Source: a virus
Length of the DNA: 30,699 bases
Direction: 5' to 3' (one strand)
IMG/VR virus record: IMGVR_UViG_3300045738_000572
Coordinates: 1 to 30,699 of that record
Part shown: positions 20,745 to 29,417 of the stretch, in pieces
How the letters are laid out: every line of letters begins with the position of its first letter
Position numbering within the stretch: the first letter of the stretch is position 1
Position numbers and translations under genes: made by a program
Notes under the pieces: model-generated
What the model saw: the letters and a program-made list of their open reading frames with translations, nothing else
What the model was told of the DNA's origin: nothing
The model's database searches: none

Positions 20745-21416
20745 TTATTTATAATCCTTTGTGCTTTTAGATACAAGTTTATCCCTAATTTGGTCCTCTA
20801 TAGGGAGATTTCGGAACCATAAGTTCAGGGCATACTTCTCGCCTGCCAGTACTGGTTGTGCTTGATGTCTTGTTTTGGGATCAGGAACCTGTGTTCCTAT
20901 AACTGTGTTGCTGAATAAAACTACTCTGCCTGCTTTAGGCCTAATACCTTTACCTAATTCTACGAAGACTGTATCTCCACCGTCTGCTACTTCATTACAA
21001 TATAAAAGAAGTGTTACTACTCTATTTCCTTGTATGCCTCCCTTCTTCTCTTCCTTTGATCTCTCTGTGCCTGCAGGAAAAGCATCTAAGTGGGCATCAT
21101 ATTCCTCACCTAGTTCGTAATGTAATGCTTGTACATTTTCTGCTTGTGAATAATGTAGGTTTGTTAATTGTGAGGATCTTATTAGAAAGGTAACGGCTGT
21201 TGGGCTTTTTTTATAATCCAACCAGCCCATTTGATTTGTTCTTCCATAATGATCATGATCATCGCCGTCTTTACCTTGTGTAACTTTGCCTCGAGTCCAT
21301 TGAACGTTCTCGTTCATATCTATTATTAATTGTTTACATTCAGGCTCACTCATAAATTCATCCCACACCATAATTGTGGGGTTGAATAAACTAATTACCT
21401 GCTTTAATTTTGCCAT
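20745..21416 (-). CDS. Prolyl-4-hydroxylase-like 2OG-Fe(II) oxygenase
   Basis: From the ATG at 21416 (MAKLKQVISLFNPT, with AGGTGG five bases upstream; an in-frame GTG lies three codons earlier) the 223-aa protein has all expected ligands: H109-L-D111 in EYDAHLDAF, distal H184 in KTRHQAQPVLAGEKYALNLWFR, and K194 for 2-oxoglutarate. It should hydroxylate a protein or peptide side chain using O2, Fe(II) and 2OG. The gene overlaps the radical-SAM gene by 26 nt, so both enzymes are probably made together and may act on one target. It differs from the second oxygenase (9538-10134), which lacks the distal His. Confidence 0.88.
   Translation of the reverse strand: MAKLKQVISLFNPTIMVWDEFMSEPECKQLIIDMNENVQWTRGKVTQGKDGDDHDHYGRTNQMGWLDYKKSPTAVTFLIRSSQLTNLHYSQAENVQALHYELGEEYDAHLDAFPAGTERSKEEKKGGIQGNRVVTLLLYCNEVADGGDTVFVELGKGIRPKAGRVVLFSNTVIGTQVPDPKTRHQAQPVLAGEKYALNLWFRNLPIEDQIRDKLVSKSTKDYK
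20746..20753 (-). promoter_or_regulatory. Late-promoter match TATAAATA
   Basis: Exact T4 late octamer at the stop codon of the prolyl-hydroxylase-like gene and at the 5' end of the non-coding segment before hsp20. Transcripts from here would carry about 190 nt of structured leader. Confidence 0.5.
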
Positions 21417-22704
21417 AAAATCCACCTAATTCAGGAAAGGTTTTAATAAAATCTGTTCCCCTTCTCCTGTCATGTTCATCTACAAAGTTTACAAAATCAT
21501 CTCTTTGTACTTTTAATTCTAATCCTTTAAATCTGTTTCTTTTGATCCAATCAGTTGTTCTTTGTAGCTTCATTATTTCATAGGGTTGAAATATATTATC
21601 AAAGGACTTCATACTTTCTAAACTATTATCTAATATACTTATAACATTATCATCAGCAATCCTAGCAGTCAGGTGTAACGGCTCAACCATATTAGGCATG
21701 TCTATTGTAATTAAGTCACCATAAGTATTTTTTAATTCTGCCATTTTAAATATGAATTGTTCAAAGTTAGGTATAGATAAAAAACAAAAGGTGCACATAA
21801 TACCAACAGGAATTCCGCTTGCTAAAACCCTATGTAGATTTTGTTCTAACGTATCCATCTTTAATCCGTTCCTTATATACTCCGCCTGTTCACCCCAGCT
21901 GTCTAAACTGACATAACATTTTTGTCCAGGGAGATCTTTAACTAGGGAAATATACTCTCGAACTCTCCTTTCAGTCGCCATCAAATTTGTGCTGATTTCG
22001 AAGGATAAGTTCTCTTTAGGATGATCTTTGACATACTGTAATAACTTGAACGTATTCTCGTCTAGTAAGGGTTCTCCACCAGTCAAGCGTATAGTATTTA
22101 GGTGTGGATAAGCCTCAGGCAACCACTTCCAAAACTTCTTAACATCGGGGTTCTCAGAGGGTATTAGAATGTCACTTCTTGGTATGTACTTATCGTGGTT
22201 GGATTTACTTTTTAAGTCGTAAGGCCCGTGCTTAGCTAGCTCCTTTTGCCAAGTTGAGCTTTTACCTGCTCCACAATAACTACATGACATTTGACATTTA
22301 TTAGTAAAGCTAACTGTTAAGTACCTTGGCCATACATCTTCATCGGCAGGTATTGCTGCCGTTTTTGCTATTAGGTCTGGATCGTGTTTTAGAAACTGTA
22401 CAGCGAGCATTTGCCTATCGCTAAAGTTTCCTGTTTCTTCTATATCGTAACAATAAGAATCTTCAGCGGGCTTGCCGCCGTCTAACATTTGTTGTCTTAC
22501 TGCTTTGGTGTAGGGTGTGTTGTGTAAATCGCTATCGCTTGGGATCTTATGCTGAGGGCAGTGGTAGCAGGAATGTTTCAATCCTTCTGCTAAACTAAGT
22601 TCTAGATAATACCACTTTAATAAACAGAAGCCTGGACCTACATCGTCCAAATCATTTTTTATTTTTGTTAACCAGTATTCCTGACTATTTGATTTTTTTA
22701 CCAA
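21391..22704 (-). CDS. Radical SAM protein (twitch-domain type)
   Basis: This 437-aa protein has the radical SAM cluster motif C137-xxx-C141-xx-C144 (FTNKCQMSCSYCGAGKSS), the TGGEPLL segment (about 203-209) and EISTNLM and KCYVSLDSWG strands of a TIM-like barrel. A pre-domain with C46-YH-C49 and C85 could hold a second metal site, as in proteins modifying peptides, but no SPASM domain is clear. It cleaves SAM to start radical chemistry; substrate unknown. No ATG exists near the 5' end: the best start is TTG at 22704, 20 nt before the regA stop, so initiation probably depends on RegA translation. It overlaps the oxygenase gene downstream. Confidence 0.85.
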   Translation of the reverse strand: MVKKSNSQEYWLTKIKNDLDDVGPGFCLLKWYYLELSLAEGLKHSCYHCPQHKIPSDSDLHNTPYTKAVRQQMLDGGKPAEDSYCYDIEETGNFSDRQMLAVQFLKHDPDLIAKTAAIPADEDVWPRYLTVSFTNKCQMSCSYCGAGKSSTWQKELAKHGPYDLKSKSNHDKYIPRSDILIPSENPDVKKFWKWLPEAYPHLNTIRLTGGEPLLDENTFKLLQYVKDHPKENLSFEISTNLMATERRVREYISLVKDLPGQKCYVSLDSWGEQAEYIRNGLKMDTLEQNLHRVLASGIPVGIMCTFCFLSIPNFEQFIFKMAELKNTYGDLITIDMPNMVEPLHLTARIADDNVISILDNSLESMKSFDNIFQPYEIMKLQRTTDWIKRNRFKGLELKVQRDDFVNFVDEHDRRRGTDFIKTFPELGGFYGKIKAGN

Positions 22705-23154: not shown

Positions 23155-23162
23155 TATTTATA
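23155..23162 (-). promoter_or_regulatory. Late-promoter match TATAAATA ahead of regA
   Basis: Exact T4 late octamer on the minus strand, overlapping the gp62 stop and 48 nt before the regA ATG. The short gap 23108-23157 holds no gene. Late RegA expression would be consistent with shutting off early messages, but the match alone is not proof. Confidence 0.45.
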
Positions 23163-23622
23163 ATTTACCACCTTTAGACGTATTCAGGTATAATTTTATA
23201 ACATCTATATCTGTTTCAGATAAAAGTCTTAAAGCTTCTTTTGCTTTGTTAAAACTATAATGAAAAAATCGCTGAATCGCGTCAATATTCTCCTCTTCAG
23301 ATTTTAGCCATTTATTATATCTCTTTGCCTTTCTTACCACCACACGTAGAAAGTCATATTGTAATTTTTTGTCAATATGCGATCTAGAATTCATTTCATT
23401 GCCTGCAATAACTGTATCAGGTCCAAATCCCATAGCCCTATTTACAATAAAGGCGTTATATTCATTCTCAGTTCTCTCATCAACCATCAAGTCTTCTTTT
23501 GTAAAGTTGATAGAATTTACAAAATCAAAAGGAGAAATCTTCTTCAATTTCTCTTGAAATTGTTCTTCAGCAATGTCCTCTACGGGATCGCCGAATCCTT
23601 CTAATATTGCGTTGTCATCCAT
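23158..23622 (-). CDS. 62: Clamp loader small subunit gp62
   Basis: This 154-aa protein matches gp62 of T4-like phages: SPFDFVNSINFTKEDLM, a DERTENEYNAFIVNR segment, FGPDTVIAGNEMN, LQYDFLRVVVRKAKRYNKWLK and a C-terminal helix. T4 gp62 is 187 aa. One gp62 with four gp44 subunits opens and loads the gp45 clamp. Its ATG shares a base with the TAA of a 38-aa lipoprotein ORF (TAATG). In T4, gp62 directly follows gp44; here a ribbon-helix-helix gene, an exported Cu-monooxygenase-like gene and that lipoprotein ORF lie between. Confidence 0.9.
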   Translation of the reverse strand: MDDNAILEGFGDPVEDIAEEQFQEKLKKISPFDFVNSINFTKEDLMVDERTENEYNAFIVNRAMGFGPDTVIAGNEMNSRSHIDKKLQYDFLRVVVRKAKRYNKWLKSEEENIDAIQRFFHYSFNKAKEALRLLSETDIDVIKLYLNTSKGGKL

Positions 23623-23738
23623 TAATCAAATATTATTTTATTTGCTGGCAACAATAATTCGAAGTCACTCTCAAGGGTCTCGTAGGTGACGTTGCAGCTT
23701 GCTAAAAATAACATAAATATTGCATATCTAGTTTTCAT
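23622..23738 (-). CDS. Predicted small lipoprotein, 38 aa
   Basis: An ORF in the gap between the Cu-monooxygenase-like gene and gp62. It starts inside the last codons of the former (11-nt overlap) and ends TAATG onto gp62. The product starts MKTRYAIFMLFLASCNVTYE: a basic N-terminus, a hydrophobic stretch, and the lipobox L12-A-S-C15. A mature lipoprotein of 24 residues with Asn at +2 would be predicted. The Shine-Dalgarno is weak (AAGAGAT). Tight coupling to a periplasmic enzyme suggests a shared envelope role; that is inference. Confidence 0.6.
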   Translation of the reverse strand: MKTRYAIFMLFLASCNVTYETLESDFELLLPANKIIFD

Positions 23739-25011
23739 TTATATCTCTTTTATCTATAAGTTCATTATAACCCTCGTCATCTAAATGGGTAATAGCCATC
23801 CAGTTATGAGTCATTTCATCACCAGTTCTACTACCACCCACTACCCATTGATCTGGGTCTGGATTATTAGGATTGTTGCTTGTATTATCATACCATTGTT
23901 TCATAATTAAAACAGAGCCTGTAGGTACCAACGGTGCCGCTCCAGGAGCAAATATATGGCTGTGATGCCAGACTGCACTCCAATTTGATACTTGACTTAT
24001 TTCGTCGGTCTGGCCTGTTGTTGGATTAAAAATCTCCAAACTGGCAGCGTTCATTCTTAAGTGACCGTGGGGCTGCCAACTATCTATTCTTACAGGGTGA
24101 TCAAAAGATTTAAACCCTTGAGTCATATAATATCCATTAGGTGGAATAACTATATCAGCTTGGGCTCCAAGTCTATATAAACTTAAATCTTGCTTATACT
24201 TAGCCTCAAAGTCTGGCTCATGGAACCACAGTCCAATTTCAACTACATTATCTTTAACCATTTCACCTTGTGCCATTGCTCCCACCCCGCCTGGAAACAT
24301 ATGAATATCCCAACGTATTTGGGCGTTTGCTGGAAATGTTCTACATACTCCTGCAGGTACTAACTCTCCCCACTTGCCCATTGCATACTCAGTAAGCATT
24401 GCACCAGGTATACCATCCATTACTATATTAGAATTGGCATGATGTACTACCGCTTTGGCGCGCCCTAATGGTTTAACTTGAACGGCTTTAATACATCTAT
24501 CTTCTGTAACTCCAGAGTTCACAAGATGTTTATGCCACAGGTCATTTCCACTAGCTGGAATGTCTATAGGGATTGACGGGATTACTAAAGTTGGGGGTCC
24601 AAGTTCAGCGGCAAAGCTCCACTCATCCAGATCTGGTAATTCAGGTCGTGCTGCTTCTATATCAGGATCACCTTGCGGTGCGCCTGCTCTTACCCAATTA
24701 ACTACCGTATCAATATCATTTTGTGGAAGTCGCCAATCCCCTTGTAAATCTTGAATGCCTATACCTTGATCATAAGCATATGGTGGCATCTCTCTTGTTG
24801 CTATTTTATGTTGTATTAACGGTGCCCAAGGTCTTACTTGTTCATAAGACTCAAAACTCATTGGACCTATACCACCTTGTCGATGGCATACAACACAATT
24901 ATTATTAATTATTGATGAAACTTCGTCAACGTAGGTTACTTCATCAGCATACATTTTGCTGGCAAAAACCAACAAGGCTGCAACTAACAATACTGCTAGT
25001 AATGTTTTCAT
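23728..25011 (-). CDS. Exported cytochrome c / copper type II monooxygenase-like protein
   Basis: This 427-aa protein has a Sec signal peptide (residues 1-22, likely cleaved after MYA), a haem c site C39-VV-C42-H43 with likely axial M75 (REMPPYA), and then two domains resembling copper type II ascorbate-dependent monooxygenases (PHM/DBM family). All six copper ligands seem present: H190-H191 (VVHHANSN) and H237 (WDIHMFPGG) for CuH; H315-G-H317 (WQPHGHLR) and M400 (GDEMTHNW) for CuM. These enzymes hydroxylate C-H bonds with O2 and electrons; the haem domain could feed them. It should act in the host periplasm. AAGGA precedes the ATG. It stands between gp44/RHH and gp62 in the clamp-loader operon, which is not usual. 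Substrate unknown. Confidence 0.85.
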   Translation of the reverse strand: MKTLLAVLLVAALLVFASKMYADEVTYVDEVSSIINNNCVVCHRQGGIGPMSFESYEQVRPWAPLIQHKIATREMPPYAYDQGIGIQDLQGDWRLPQNDIDTVVNWVRAGAPQGDPDIEAARPELPDLDEWSFAAELGPPTLVIPSIPIDIPASGNDLWHKHLVNSGVTEDRCIKAVQVKPLGRAKAVVHHANSNIVMDGIPGAMLTEYAMGKWGELVPAGVCRTFPANAQIRWDIHMFPGGVGAMAQGEMVKDNVVEIGLWFHEPDFEAKYKQDLSLYRLGAQADIVIPPNGYYMTQGFKSFDHPVRIDSWQPHGHLRMNAASLEIFNPTTGQTDEISQVSNWSAVWHHSHIFAPGAAPLVPTGSVLIMKQWYDNTSNNPNNPDPDQWVVGGSRTGDEMTHNWMAITHLDDEGYNELIDKRDINEN

Positions 25012-25022
25012 TCTTGGATCCT

Positions 25023-25196
25023 TTAATTAAAGCCAAAATCTTTCTCTTTCATTTCTCTGTAACTTTCGAGCAAAAGCTCAGTTATAGAAATTTTACGTTT
25101 TTTTGCTTCTGCCTTTAATTCCTCTTTTAATTCTTCAGGAACACGAATATCTATTCTGGCAGTTGCCTTTCCTGCTTCATTATAATCTTTTGTCAT
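25023..25196 (-). CDS. Ribbon-helix-helix DNA-binding protein
   Basis: The ATG at 25196 overlaps the gp44 TGA (ATGA), preferred to a longer in-frame version. The 57-aa product (MTKDYNEAGKATARIDIRVP...) has an RHH pattern: strand ARIDIRVP, helix EELKEELKAEAKKRK, turn, helix ISITELLLESYREMKEK. Such proteins bind operators as dimers (Arc/MetJ/CopG type). It lies 11 nt before the Cu-monooxygenase-like gene and is a natural candidate to regulate that cargo or the operon. No operator was identified. Confidence 0.8.
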   Translation of the reverse strand: MTKDYNEAGKATARIDIRVPEELKEELKAEAKKRKISITELLLESYREMKEKDFGFN

Positions 25197-26131
25197 ACAA
25201 ATTCCACACTTGCCATAATTTCTGTTAAACATGCAGTAAGGTTAATTTCCTGATCTGCCACAAATGCCGCTTTATACTGATAATCGGCGATTAACAGAAC
25301 TAACTGTGGAATTGACTTAATCTCAGGTATTAGTATGTCATATATCTGTCTAAATATACCCTGAGGGTCAGTATCCACATTATTCGATACCCACTGTCTC
25401 ATCTGCTTCCAATCCTTGTCCCTAAGGGCCTCTATAAGCTGCTTAGCGTTGATTTCCTGGAAGTTACTTAGTACACCCTCATCTATTTTCCCTGCCACAG
25501 AGTACCTCTGTAGCTCATTGATGACCCTCCTATAGTCAGGGAAATACTTCATTAGGAGCTCCGCTAACACCTTCTCAGAGTACTCAATCCCTTCATTATC
25601 CAGGATATAAGCCATCCTTTGAAGGAACTTAGCAGCGAGCTTAGGGCGGTCTGAGGGGGCTATTTTAAAGTCCACCACTGTCGTTCTACTGTGCAAAGGT
25701 GTTATTATTCTATTTATATAGTTACAAGTAAAGATGAACCTACAATTCGACGAAAACGTCTCTATAAACGCCCGTAGTGCCGGTTGGACACTTTCTCTGT
25801 TCAAATAGTCAGCCTCATCGAGTATTACTACCTTAGTTTTACCCTCAAAAGACACTGCTGATGCAAAGCTTCGTATTTTAGTTCTTAGGGTATCTATCTG
25901 TCTACCTTCATCTGAACCATTAATAATTATATAGTCACAATCAAGTTCTTCGCACAATGCACGCGCAAGGCTTGTTTTACCTGTACCTGCTCCGCCAGTT
26001 AATAGTAAGTTGGGTATTTCCTTTTTAGCAATAAACTGCTGGAATGTAGTTTTTACCTCTTCAGGTAATATACAGTCTTTTATTGTATGTGGGCGATATT
26101 TTTCAACCCATAAAAATTGTTCAGGATTCAT
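25193..26131 (-). CDS. 44: Clamp loader ATPase subunit gp44
   Basis: This 312-aa AAA+ protein (T4 gp44: 319 aa) has FLWVEKYRPHTIKD at the N-terminus, Walker A GGAGTGKTS (46-54), Walker B with D105-E-A-D108 in VVILDEADYL, sensor 1 FIFTCNYINRI, and the arginine finger region LHSRT (146-150; usually SRC). It uses ATP to load the gp45 clamp with gp62. The typical SD is not close: GGAG stands 15 nt before the ATG, inside a repeated element (26133-26170). It overlaps the ribbon-helix-helix gene downstream. Confidence 0.95.
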   Translation of the reverse strand: MNPEQFLWVEKYRPHTIKDCILPEEVKTTFQQFIAKKEIPNLLLTGGAGTGKTSLARALCEELDCDYIIINGSDEGRQIDTLRTKIRSFASAVSFEGKTKVVILDEADYLNRESVQPALRAFIETFSSNCRFIFTCNYINRIITPLHSRTTVVDFKIAPSDRPKLAAKFLQRMAYILDNEGIEYSEKVLAELLMKYFPDYRRVINELQRYSVAGKIDEGVLSNFQEINAKQLIEALRDKDWKQMRQWVSNNVDTDPQGIFRQIYDILIPEIKSIPQLVLLIADYQYKAAFVADQEINLTACLTEIMASVEFV

Positions 26132-26185: not shown

Positions 26186-26773
26186 CTAACCGAATTTCTC
26201 CTTAACAGAAGTCGTATCTGAGAAGTTCAGCTCTATATTAGTACCGACACTTGCTGCTTCTTTTACGACTCGGAATACATTTTCAGGTGTACTGACTTCA
26301 TAAGGATCTCCTTCAGCATTATCTTGGAAACCTTCTTCAACAAATGACTTGATTATTGTCCCATCAGTTACCACTGCTGCGTATCTCCAGGATCTCATTC
26401 CAAATCCTAAGTTATCTTTCCGAACATCCATGTTCATTTTAATTGTAAACTCACCACTGCCATCTGGTATCAGTTTAACGTTTACAATACCCTGGTTCAT
26501 TCTCCACTCATCCATAACGAACGTATCATTAACACTAAAGCAATAGATATCATCTATACCTTGTTGTCTAAAAGGTTTATACATGTTTTCAAATCCAGGA
26601 AGCTGTTGTCCTGAACATGTTGGCGTAAATGCTCCAGGCAATCCAAAAATAACTACTGTCTTGTCTTTAAAAAGATCGTCTGTTGTTAATGTGACCCACT
26701 TCTTTTCGCCTGTTGTCAACACCACTCTCTTATGGAATGTTGCTTGTGGAATCTCAGCTGGTAATTTACTCAT
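26186..26773 (-). CDS. Peroxiredoxin (AhpC/TSA, Prx5-like)
   Basis: This 195-aa protein has the peroxidatic site P46-GAFTPT-C53 in VVIFGLPGAFTPTCSGQQLP, typical of the Prx5-type family, and a conserved Arg in FGMRSWRYAAVV. It reduces hydrogen peroxide or organic peroxides using thiols. No signal peptide, so it acts in the cytoplasm. It stands between the clamp (gp45) unit and gp44 in the same operon as the Cu-monooxygenase-like gene. A protective role against oxidative stress in the infected cell is likely. It overlaps the 60-aa gene before it by 8 nt. Confidence 0.9.
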   Translation of the reverse strand: MSKLPAEIPQATFHKRVVLTTGEKKWVTLTTDDLFKDKTVVIFGLPGAFTPTCSGQQLPGFENMYKPFRQQGIDDIYCFSVNDTFVMDEWRMNQGIVNVKLIPDGSGEFTIKMNMDVRKDNLGFGMRSWRYAAVVTDGTIIKSFVEEGFQDNAEGDPYEVSTPENVFRVVKEAASVGTNIELNFSDTTSVKEKFG

Positions 26774-27680: not shown

Positions 27681-28657
27681 CAGTTAAGCATACCAAAACT
27701 GTCTAATTCAAATTCAATTTTATCTGCTAAAGCTTTATGGTGTTTCGCTCCTGGATGTAAAAGATCTCTGCCCACATCATCTAAAGAAGCCCCAGGAGGA
27801 GGCACCTTTTCTCGCATAGGTTTTAATACTGTTTCACTCATTACTCTTAAACAAGAATCAGGATCTGTTGGTAATGAAACTCCAACTCCATGTGTGAAAT
27901 GGTGAACGATATGTAGTTTACTATCATCTATAAAATTATATGTTGATTCATCAGACATATCTTCTAATGTATCTGATGTTATGTCTATCCATAAGATAGG
28001 TATGTCCCAATTCTCAGCTAGTCTAATAATAGTCTTCATCATGAGCATGTGTTGCCATTTTGCCACGCCTAAGGATTGATATAAAAAGAGTAGATCTTTC
28101 TTTTTCTCCCCAGCAATTCCTCCAAGCTCATAAGCTGCAGGAATGTAATCTATATTCTTTACGCCAACCGGAACCCCTGGAACACCTACAGAAATTCCTG
28201 TAGAATTTTGTGAACCAAGCAATATTATATGTTTGGGAGGTGTTTTCCAATACTTGCTTAACTGTAAAAGATTAAAAGGCACGTTCTCTACTCTACCACC
28301 ATAGGTAGATGCATTATAAAAAGGGATGCCATGTCTCTCTTCTAAAATTTTATGATATAAATCTCTGTTATGTACCCCTGGGCCTACCCCGATGCATTCC
28401 GTAGAACATAAGACCCAATCGCTATTCAAATCTTCTACTTCATAATCAGATCTGAAACCCAAAGAATCAAATTTATAAGTAACGGGATCATCCTCATCAA
28501 AATAATACTTCCACTCTCGCCCATGAATCTCCCTTGCTTTTGTGAACCAATCAAATGATTCATGTAACAACCATCTATATTCTTCTTTGGGATCGGCCTG
28601 ATATGATATCAAGCCATGTTTCCCCAACGTTACACGTTGCATAGGAGTATTATTCAT
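27677..28657 (-). CDS. SGNH-hydrolase-like protein with altered nucleophile block
   Basis: From the ATG at 28657 (MNNTPMQRVTLGKHG) the 326-aa protein shows SGNH blocks: block I VLCSTECIGVG (82-92), aligned with VxGDSxTxGxG; block II YNASTYGGRVEN; block III HIILLGSQN; block V D298-LL-H301 in RDLLHPGAKHH. In block I the usual GDS reads CST, so the nucleophile Ser is Thr86 or is shifted to Ser85. An esterase, lipase or acyl-transfer role would normally follow; activity here is uncertain. A longer start at 28684 would overlap the crotonase by 35 nt; with the chosen start the overlap is 8 nt. Confidence 0.7.
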   Translation of the reverse strand: MNNTPMQRVTLGKHGLISYQADPKEEYRWLLHESFDWFTKAREIHGREWKYYFDEDDPVTYKFDSLGFRSDYEVEDLNSDWVLCSTECIGVGPGVHNRDLYHKILEERHGIPFYNASTYGGRVENVPFNLLQLSKYWKTPPKHIILLGSQNSTGISVGVPGVPVGVKNIDYIPAAYELGGIAGEKKKDLLFLYQSLGVAKWQHMLMMKTIIRLAENWDIPILWIDITSDTLEDMSDESTYNFIDDSKLHIVHHFTHGVGVSLPTDPDSCLRVMSETVLKPMREKVPPPGASLDDVGRDLLHPGAKHHKALADKIEFELDSFGMLNC

Positions 28658-29417
28658 TCTTAAAAACCGGTGGCCTCTTTTCATAAAATGCTGCTATGCC
28701 TTCTTCTGCATCTTCAGATTCTAAACACATGTCCTTAGCCCAAAGAGCAAAGTCAACAGCCTCATCGTAATTAGAGTTTAATGTATGCCAAACTGCTCCC
28801 TTAGTCCCCCTTACAGCTATTGGTCCACACTCTGTGGCTATACGATGTGCATAGGCTAAAGCTCTCTCATCGGAGTCACCACGGCATATCTGAGTACACA
28901 GTCCTACTCTCTCCAGCCACCATACATCATGTGGCTCTCCCAGAATCATAAACTCCATGGCCCTGGCATGTCCTATTCTTTGAGCTAATTTTACTTGCAT
29001 AGTGACTGCATTAAATCCTAGTGTAACTTCAGGACATTTAAATACACTACGCGTATCTGCAAAAACAAAATCCCCAGCTAACATTATTCCAAAACCCTCT
29101 CCTATACAGACACCTTTGGTAGACACCACAATAGGCTTTGGTGTTACCATATCGCCATCTGTTATTGTGGTACCAACACTTCCATCTCTCATGCCTGGAA
29201 GTAAACCTGCGACATCAAAGCCTGCAGTAAAATGTTTGGGATTACCTGATTGTATGACGAGAACCCTAGCTTCATCATCATCTCTGTATTCAACTAGGGC
29301 GTCATTGTATCCTTGGTAAAAAGGTTTTTGTAAAATATTTAATGGACCGTCACCGTTTATGGTTAAAACGGCTACATGGTTATCTAAATTGTAAGTGACT
29401 GATTCACCTGATGCCAT
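28650..29417 (-). CDS. Crotonase-family protein (enoyl-CoA hydratase/isomerase)
   Basis: This 255-aa protein has the crotonase fold markers: oxyanion-hole segment 1 HFTAGFD (62-68), segment 2 GVCIGEGFGIMLAGDFVFAD with the second oxyanion Gly near 107-108, and VFKCPEVTLGF with E130. In enoyl-CoA hydratase two Glu residues act (E144, E164); the first corresponds to G110 here, the second to E130. One-Glu variants are usual in delta3-delta2-enoyl-CoA isomerases and other branches, so isomerase or another acyl-CoA reaction is more likely than hydratase. Acts in the cytoplasm on acyl-CoA. It overlaps an SGNH-like gene; a fatty-acyl modification or lipid-metabolism role during infection is inference. 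Confidence 0.88.
   Translation of the reverse strand: MASGESVTYNLDNHVAVLTINGDGPLNILQKPFYQGYNDALVEYRDDDEARVLVIQSGNPKHFTAGFDVAGLLPGMRDGSVGTTITDGDMVTPKPIVVSTKGVCIGEGFGIMLAGDFVFADTRSVFKCPEVTLGFNAVTMQVKLAQRIGHARAMEFMILGEPHDVWWLERVGLCTQICRGDSDERALAYAHRIATECGPIAVRGTKGAVWHTLNSNYDEAVDFALWAKDMCLESEDAEEGIAAFYEKRPPVFKNE

Follow-up and report, generated by a model that had tools for sequence, protein, structure and literature searches.

A predicted exported cytochrome c-dicopper monooxygenase encoded in a conserved T4-type phage clamp-loader locus

We analysed a window of 30,699 nucleotides, positions 1 to 30,699 of the IMG/VR virus record IMGVR_UViG_3300045738_000572, in which one gene, here called A (23728..25011, minus strand, 427 amino acids, ATG start), is predicted to encode an exported cytochrome c/PHM-DBM-type dicopper monooxygenase. 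Its neighbours on the minus strand are the genes for the clamp-loader large subunit gp44 (25193..26131; phrog_168, E 7e-121), a ribbon-helix-helix (RHH, Arc/CopG-like) protein just upstream of A, whose functional link to A is unproven (25023..25232), and the clamp-loader small subunit gp62 (23158..23622; phrog_225, E 2e-37). The order gp44 - RHH - A - gp62 - regA confirms the placement of A between gp44/RHH and gp62 in the initial annotation. An additional feature is a 38-codon ORF between A and gp62 (23622..23738, minus strand), which encodes a putative 38-aa lipoprotein with the lipobox LASC, overlaps the stop of A by 11 nt, and has its own stop overlapping the gp62 start (TAATG). The T4-type genes of the window comprise gp43 polymerase, a gp41-like helicase, UvsX, gp44, gp62, gp45 and RegA; the polymerase comes nearest to those of cyanophages and shares no more than 48% identity with any isolate-phage polymerase.

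Protein A begins with a signal peptide (residues 1-22; 24946..25011, minus strand), read from the sequence by its basic n-region, hydrophobic core and small residue at -1, with likely cleavage after MYA. Residues 2-19 form a helix in the predicted model and the hydrophobic N-terminus is found family-wide, bearing out the export signal proposed earlier. The haem c attachment motif CVVCH (C39, C42, H43; 24883..24897, minus strand) is invariant in all 58 rows of an alignment that joins the window protein to 37 orthologues and 20 paralogues (B) from viruses. M75 (24787..24789, minus strand), equally invariant and part of an MPP motif ('REMPP'), would be the distal haem ligand, and helices 27-38, 56-71 and 97-108 of the predicted haem domain have high pLDDT. 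The N-terminal region thus has the predicted make-up of a class I-like cytochrome c: an exported domain of helices with a CxxCH motif and a distal Met. Further along the minus strand lie H190-H191 (24439..24444) and H237 (24301..24303), the predicted CuH ligands corresponding to PHM H107/H108 and H172, followed by H315-G-H317 (24061..24069) and M400 in 'GDEM' (23812..23814), the predicted CuM ligands corresponding to PHM H242/H244 and Met314. All are invariant, the H315/H317 pair in every viral sequence. In PHM, H107, H108 and H172 bind CuH, and H242, H244 and M314 bind CuM (PMC6123673); A therefore carries complete predicted ligand sets for both CuH (H-H, H) and CuM (HxH, M). The initial annotation had named CxxCH at 39-43, a likely Met ligand of the haem and all six copper positions, and each was located as claimed. 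Additionally, a cysteine pair, C173 and C223, is invariant in A and missing in B.

Sequence searches linked A to known families at a distance. The window protein matched no Pfam model at the gathering cut-off, its cytochrome c matches there being sub-threshold; its NCBIfam matches were cytochromes, all weak, and PHROGs gave none. Neither as a single sequence nor as a profile did A meaningfully match the sequences of solved structures, and its sequence matches to 7ona and 8pjr were rejected as repeat artefacts. Among the 58 alignment members, 55 matched Cytochrome_CBB3 at E values up to 1 (best 2e-5) in whole-protein searches, and 16 weakly matched PF03712 (Cu2_monoox_C; best E 5e-4). In four of five host genomes, family members exceeded the Cu2_monoox_C cut-off, so the A family is tied to this Pfam model through intermediates. 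PF01082 (Cu2_monooxygen) found no match even in the host genomes or the controls.

Structure prediction placed A more firmly, and both models recovered the DBH/PHM fold. For the first, built from 58 sequences (pLDDT 75), the top 31 Foldseek matches were all DBH and PHM. The second, built from 107 viral and host sequences (pLDDT 91, pTM 0.87), aligned structurally with DBH (4zel) at Z 21.2 and rmsd 3.2 over 266 residues, and with PHM entries at Z 16-20 over residues ~140-414. In these structural alignments, sequence identity between A and DBH/PHM is 13-17%. If no late gap intervenes, M400 falls on Met314, judging from the alignment ends (model residue 414 on PHM 328 in 1phm and 1opm); in other rows it is shifted by one or two residues. 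The initial annotation had named a structure model whose six ligands fail to cluster at two copper sites as grounds for refutation; the fold (Z 19-21, against 8.4 for the best unrelated fold, PNGase F-like) and the six invariant ligands gave no such refutation and uphold its assignment of A to the PHM/DBM family, and A is modelled with a PHM/DBM double jelly-roll catalytic core. A capsid-like double jelly-roll was rejected for A, as PRD1/STIV-type capsid proteins reach just Z 7-8; PHM has the same general fold as these (PMC8812541).

A scan of viral contigs found at least 236 viral stretches encoding an A relative, and 80 viral A loci, 68-94% identical, were kept for analysis. All ten metal-ligand positions are invariant across 38 A and 20 B sequences, B being about 26% identical to A. 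In a larger set, all 79 complete viral sequences retain them, as do 158 genome sequences, which indicates that the ligand pattern is not due to chance. Ligand loss does occur in the family, solely in a redoxin-fused host paralogue (at L116:2660-4399 and at comparable loci of hosts), where Arg-x-Asn/Ser/Gly replaces the CuM HxH and the CuH ligands and the Met are retained; the fold by itself therefore does not account for ligand conservation in the viruses. Such non-canonical members could suggest that A is also a non-catalytic protein with a PHM-like fold, serving copper or haem binding or electron transfer. However, every ligand is kept in all complete viral copies, and comparison of the window gene with close relatives gives a low dN/dS (0.12-0.16, about 0.13), indicating purifying selection; we regard a non-catalytic role as very improbable.

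The residues around the presumed substrate site differ from those of PHM. PHM R240, N316 and Y318, which we take to be its contacts with the substrate carboxylate, correspond to the fixed residues Q313, H402 and W404 in A and to L, F and A in B. Peptide amidation is therefore not expected of either protein, and A and B probably act on different substrates. Although the fold and copper ligands of A are the same as those of PHM, these substitutions and the lack of a PAL lyase domain (Pfam) make it extremely improbable that A amidates glycine-extended peptides as PHM does, and its substrate is probably of another kind. A different possibility is that A serves redox balance, consuming O2 as an electron sink or shielding the infected cell from copper or oxidative stress; its haem domain would offer a route for electrons, and the locus also has a peroxiredoxin gene immediately upstream of gp44. 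We find this improbable, as the CuM site is uniformly kept and the pocket residues are fixed yet different in A and B, which points to specific substrates.

The initial annotation had also named a host/phage chimera at 23728-25011 as a finding that would overturn its proposal. The neighbourhood recurs in contigs from other metagenomes, seven of which (L001-L004 and L006-L008) share the order enoyl-CoA hydratase - 335-aa protein - gp45 - peroxiredoxin - gp44 - RHH - A - gp62 - regA - radical SAM in whole or in part. The GC3 of A (0.266) resembles that of phage genes, whereas four sampled host copies range from 0.54 to 0.77, which suggests an old acquisition. With purifying selection on the gene, these results rule out a chimera or host contamination: A is a host-derived gene within a genuine, conserved viral locus. 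Three other genes of this T4-like phage are kept in the sister contigs: an enoyl-CoA hydratase family gene (28650-29417; ECH_1, E 4e-28), the peroxiredoxin gene between gp45 and gp44 (26186-26773) and the radical SAM gene after regA (21391-22704).

The nearest cellular relatives of A, 61-69% identical, come from MAGs and SAGs of marine Gammaproteobacteria (Pseudohongiella, OM182, Pseudomonadales). Five Pseudohongiella/OM182-type genomes (G001-G005; L134, L110, L084, L105 and L151) contain 12, 38, 18, 20 and 29 family matches, counts that include some split fragments of one gene. In a quick tree, viral A forms one clade (SH-aLRT 99) nested inside the host A sequences and viral B falls elsewhere among the host paralogues, suggesting two separate acquisitions. 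The viruses apparently acquired A from marine gammaproteobacteria in the distant past, and the same ancestry points to a marine gammaproteobacterium as the probable host. Matches binned in Flavobacteriales and Neomarinimicrobiota MAGs lie on phage-like contigs (L082 and L083), which suggests misbinning. In the bacteria, A-family genes stand in tandem arrays, with as many as five copies each. A redoxin-cytochrome c-PHM fusion is usually encoded divergently from these arrays, and a 317-aa secreted protein with no Pfam match is encoded beside them in 48 loci (e.g. L116:4759-5712). Genes for a cupin, an MFS transporter, a GMC oxidoreductase, gluconate-2-dehydrogenase subunit 3 and a PQQ dehydrogenase are often nearby; in the phages, no GMC/PQQ-type dehydrogenase was noticed adjoining A.

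In the phages, A stands at the head of small cassettes with partners of its own. A lipoprotein of 57-65 aa follows A in 33 viral A loci and in L083, overlapping or abutting the stop of A in most of these 34 loci, and its mature part conserves the pattern '..F(E/D)W..P..(F/W)..N(L/I)..CR....C.A..LF'. The short ORF of the window appears to be a shortened version of it; a search of the window for the full-length protein recovered just this form, which a model of the family matched at E 0.29 and which we retained because of its position, its lipobox and a copy in L007 that is 81% identical. B, a second cytochrome-monooxygenase 24-34% identical to A, is encoded by 124 viral stretches and lies downstream of A in 33 of the 80 loci. 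Across all viral loci collected, a set chosen partly by B, 98 have A and B without the lipoprotein, 33 have A and the lipoprotein without B, 8 have all three and 16 have A alone; B occurs without A in only four, where A may have been cut off. Furthermore, about 12 A-B loci encode a small cytochrome c between A and B (L028:7290-7658; also L027, L048, L051, L062, L069 and others), 101-123 aa long, with a signal or membrane segment at the N-terminus and the motif CAACH, replaced by CSACH in a single case.

These partners also bear on where A might act. Rather than boosting metabolism, A could oxidise a component of the host envelope (a lipid, glycan, peptide or porin-bound ligand), for example blocking superinfection or easing lysis. 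Its export and its pairing with phage-specific lipoproteins, found in none of the fetched bacterial A loci, would fit an outer-membrane role. Its presence in unrelated phage types also speaks for an envelope function: some of these phages have ribonucleotide reductase genes, others T4-type tail-fibre or SbcC-like ones. On the other hand, the closest relatives of A are chromosomal host enzymes encoded beside transporter and dehydrogenase genes, and we know of no envelope enzyme of the PHM/DBM class. An envelope function is therefore unlikely.

We consider it probable, from sequence and model together, that A is an auxiliary metabolic gene by which the phage encodes a secreted dicopper C-H hydroxylase with covalently bound haem. 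During infection, A would be exported to the host periplasm, where the host cytochrome c maturation machinery may attach its haem and copper would be loaded. Electrons from the host respiratory chain could reach the fused haem directly or via the small cytochrome c of some phages, and the haem, rather than ascorbate, would pass them on to CuH and CuM. With O2, a small organic compound would then be hydroxylated by A, which would work in addition to the 12-38 family members that the host encodes itself. Anchoring or positioning A at the membrane is probably the task of the co-encoded lipoprotein. Further oxidation of the product could fall to GMC or PQQ dehydrogenases of the host, and the metabolic purpose of A is a guess prompted by the host gene neighbourhoods.

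PHM/DBM enzymes are known mainly from animals, with ascorbate as the electron donor. PHM and DBH, which are Cu type II monooxygenases, resemble A in their double jelly-roll core, their HH/H and HxH/M ligand sets and their export. They differ from it in using ascorbate, whereas the donor in A is apparently the fused cytochrome c, in their substrate-contact residues and in sharing little sequence with this phage-borne protein. Closer still are the gammaproteobacterial cytochrome c/Cu2_monoox_C proteins, with the same architecture and all ten ligands; unlike A, these are chromosomal, arrayed in tandem, numerous within each genome, high in GC3, and have no phage-type lipoprotein found with them. 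Virus-borne copper monooxygenase genes are known, namely phage pmoC (PMC7674155) and archaeal-virus amoC (PMC12713726), and these share with A a cellular origin and an apparent role as a metabolic supplement. However, pmoC and amoC each encode a single subunit of a multi-subunit, unrelated membrane enzyme, while A is predicted to be a soluble enzyme that is complete in itself and carries its own redox centre. Among 50,697 isolate-phage records, neither A nor B found a match, none of the matches listed among the predicted viral structures of BFVD had a TM above about 0.3, and no paper on a phage PHM-type enzyme was found in the literature covered, outside which lie many subscription papers and preprints. 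The initial impression that no phage enzyme of this kind is well described therefore holds. The catalytic core of A is a PHM/DBM relative; as far as could be checked, novelty lies in the fused haem domain, in the phage setting and in the cassettes.

Taken together, and with somewhat more reserve, we favour the view that phages carry an undescribed secreted hydroxylase system, a self-wired cytochrome c-dicopper monooxygenase with lipoprotein, B and cytochrome c partners, and that viruses take a direct part in oxidising C-H bonds in the periplasm of marine gammaproteobacteria. If true, the haem-wired form would represent both a new electron supply for PHM/DBM enzymes and a viral metabolic gene of a new class. 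The A-B and A-lipoprotein pairings of the phages offer compact, testable units. The findings also draw attention to an extensive, uncharacterised family of oxygenases in marine gammaproteobacteria; a phage apparently gains from oxidising the substrate of this family, and identifying that substrate would reveal an unknown pathway.
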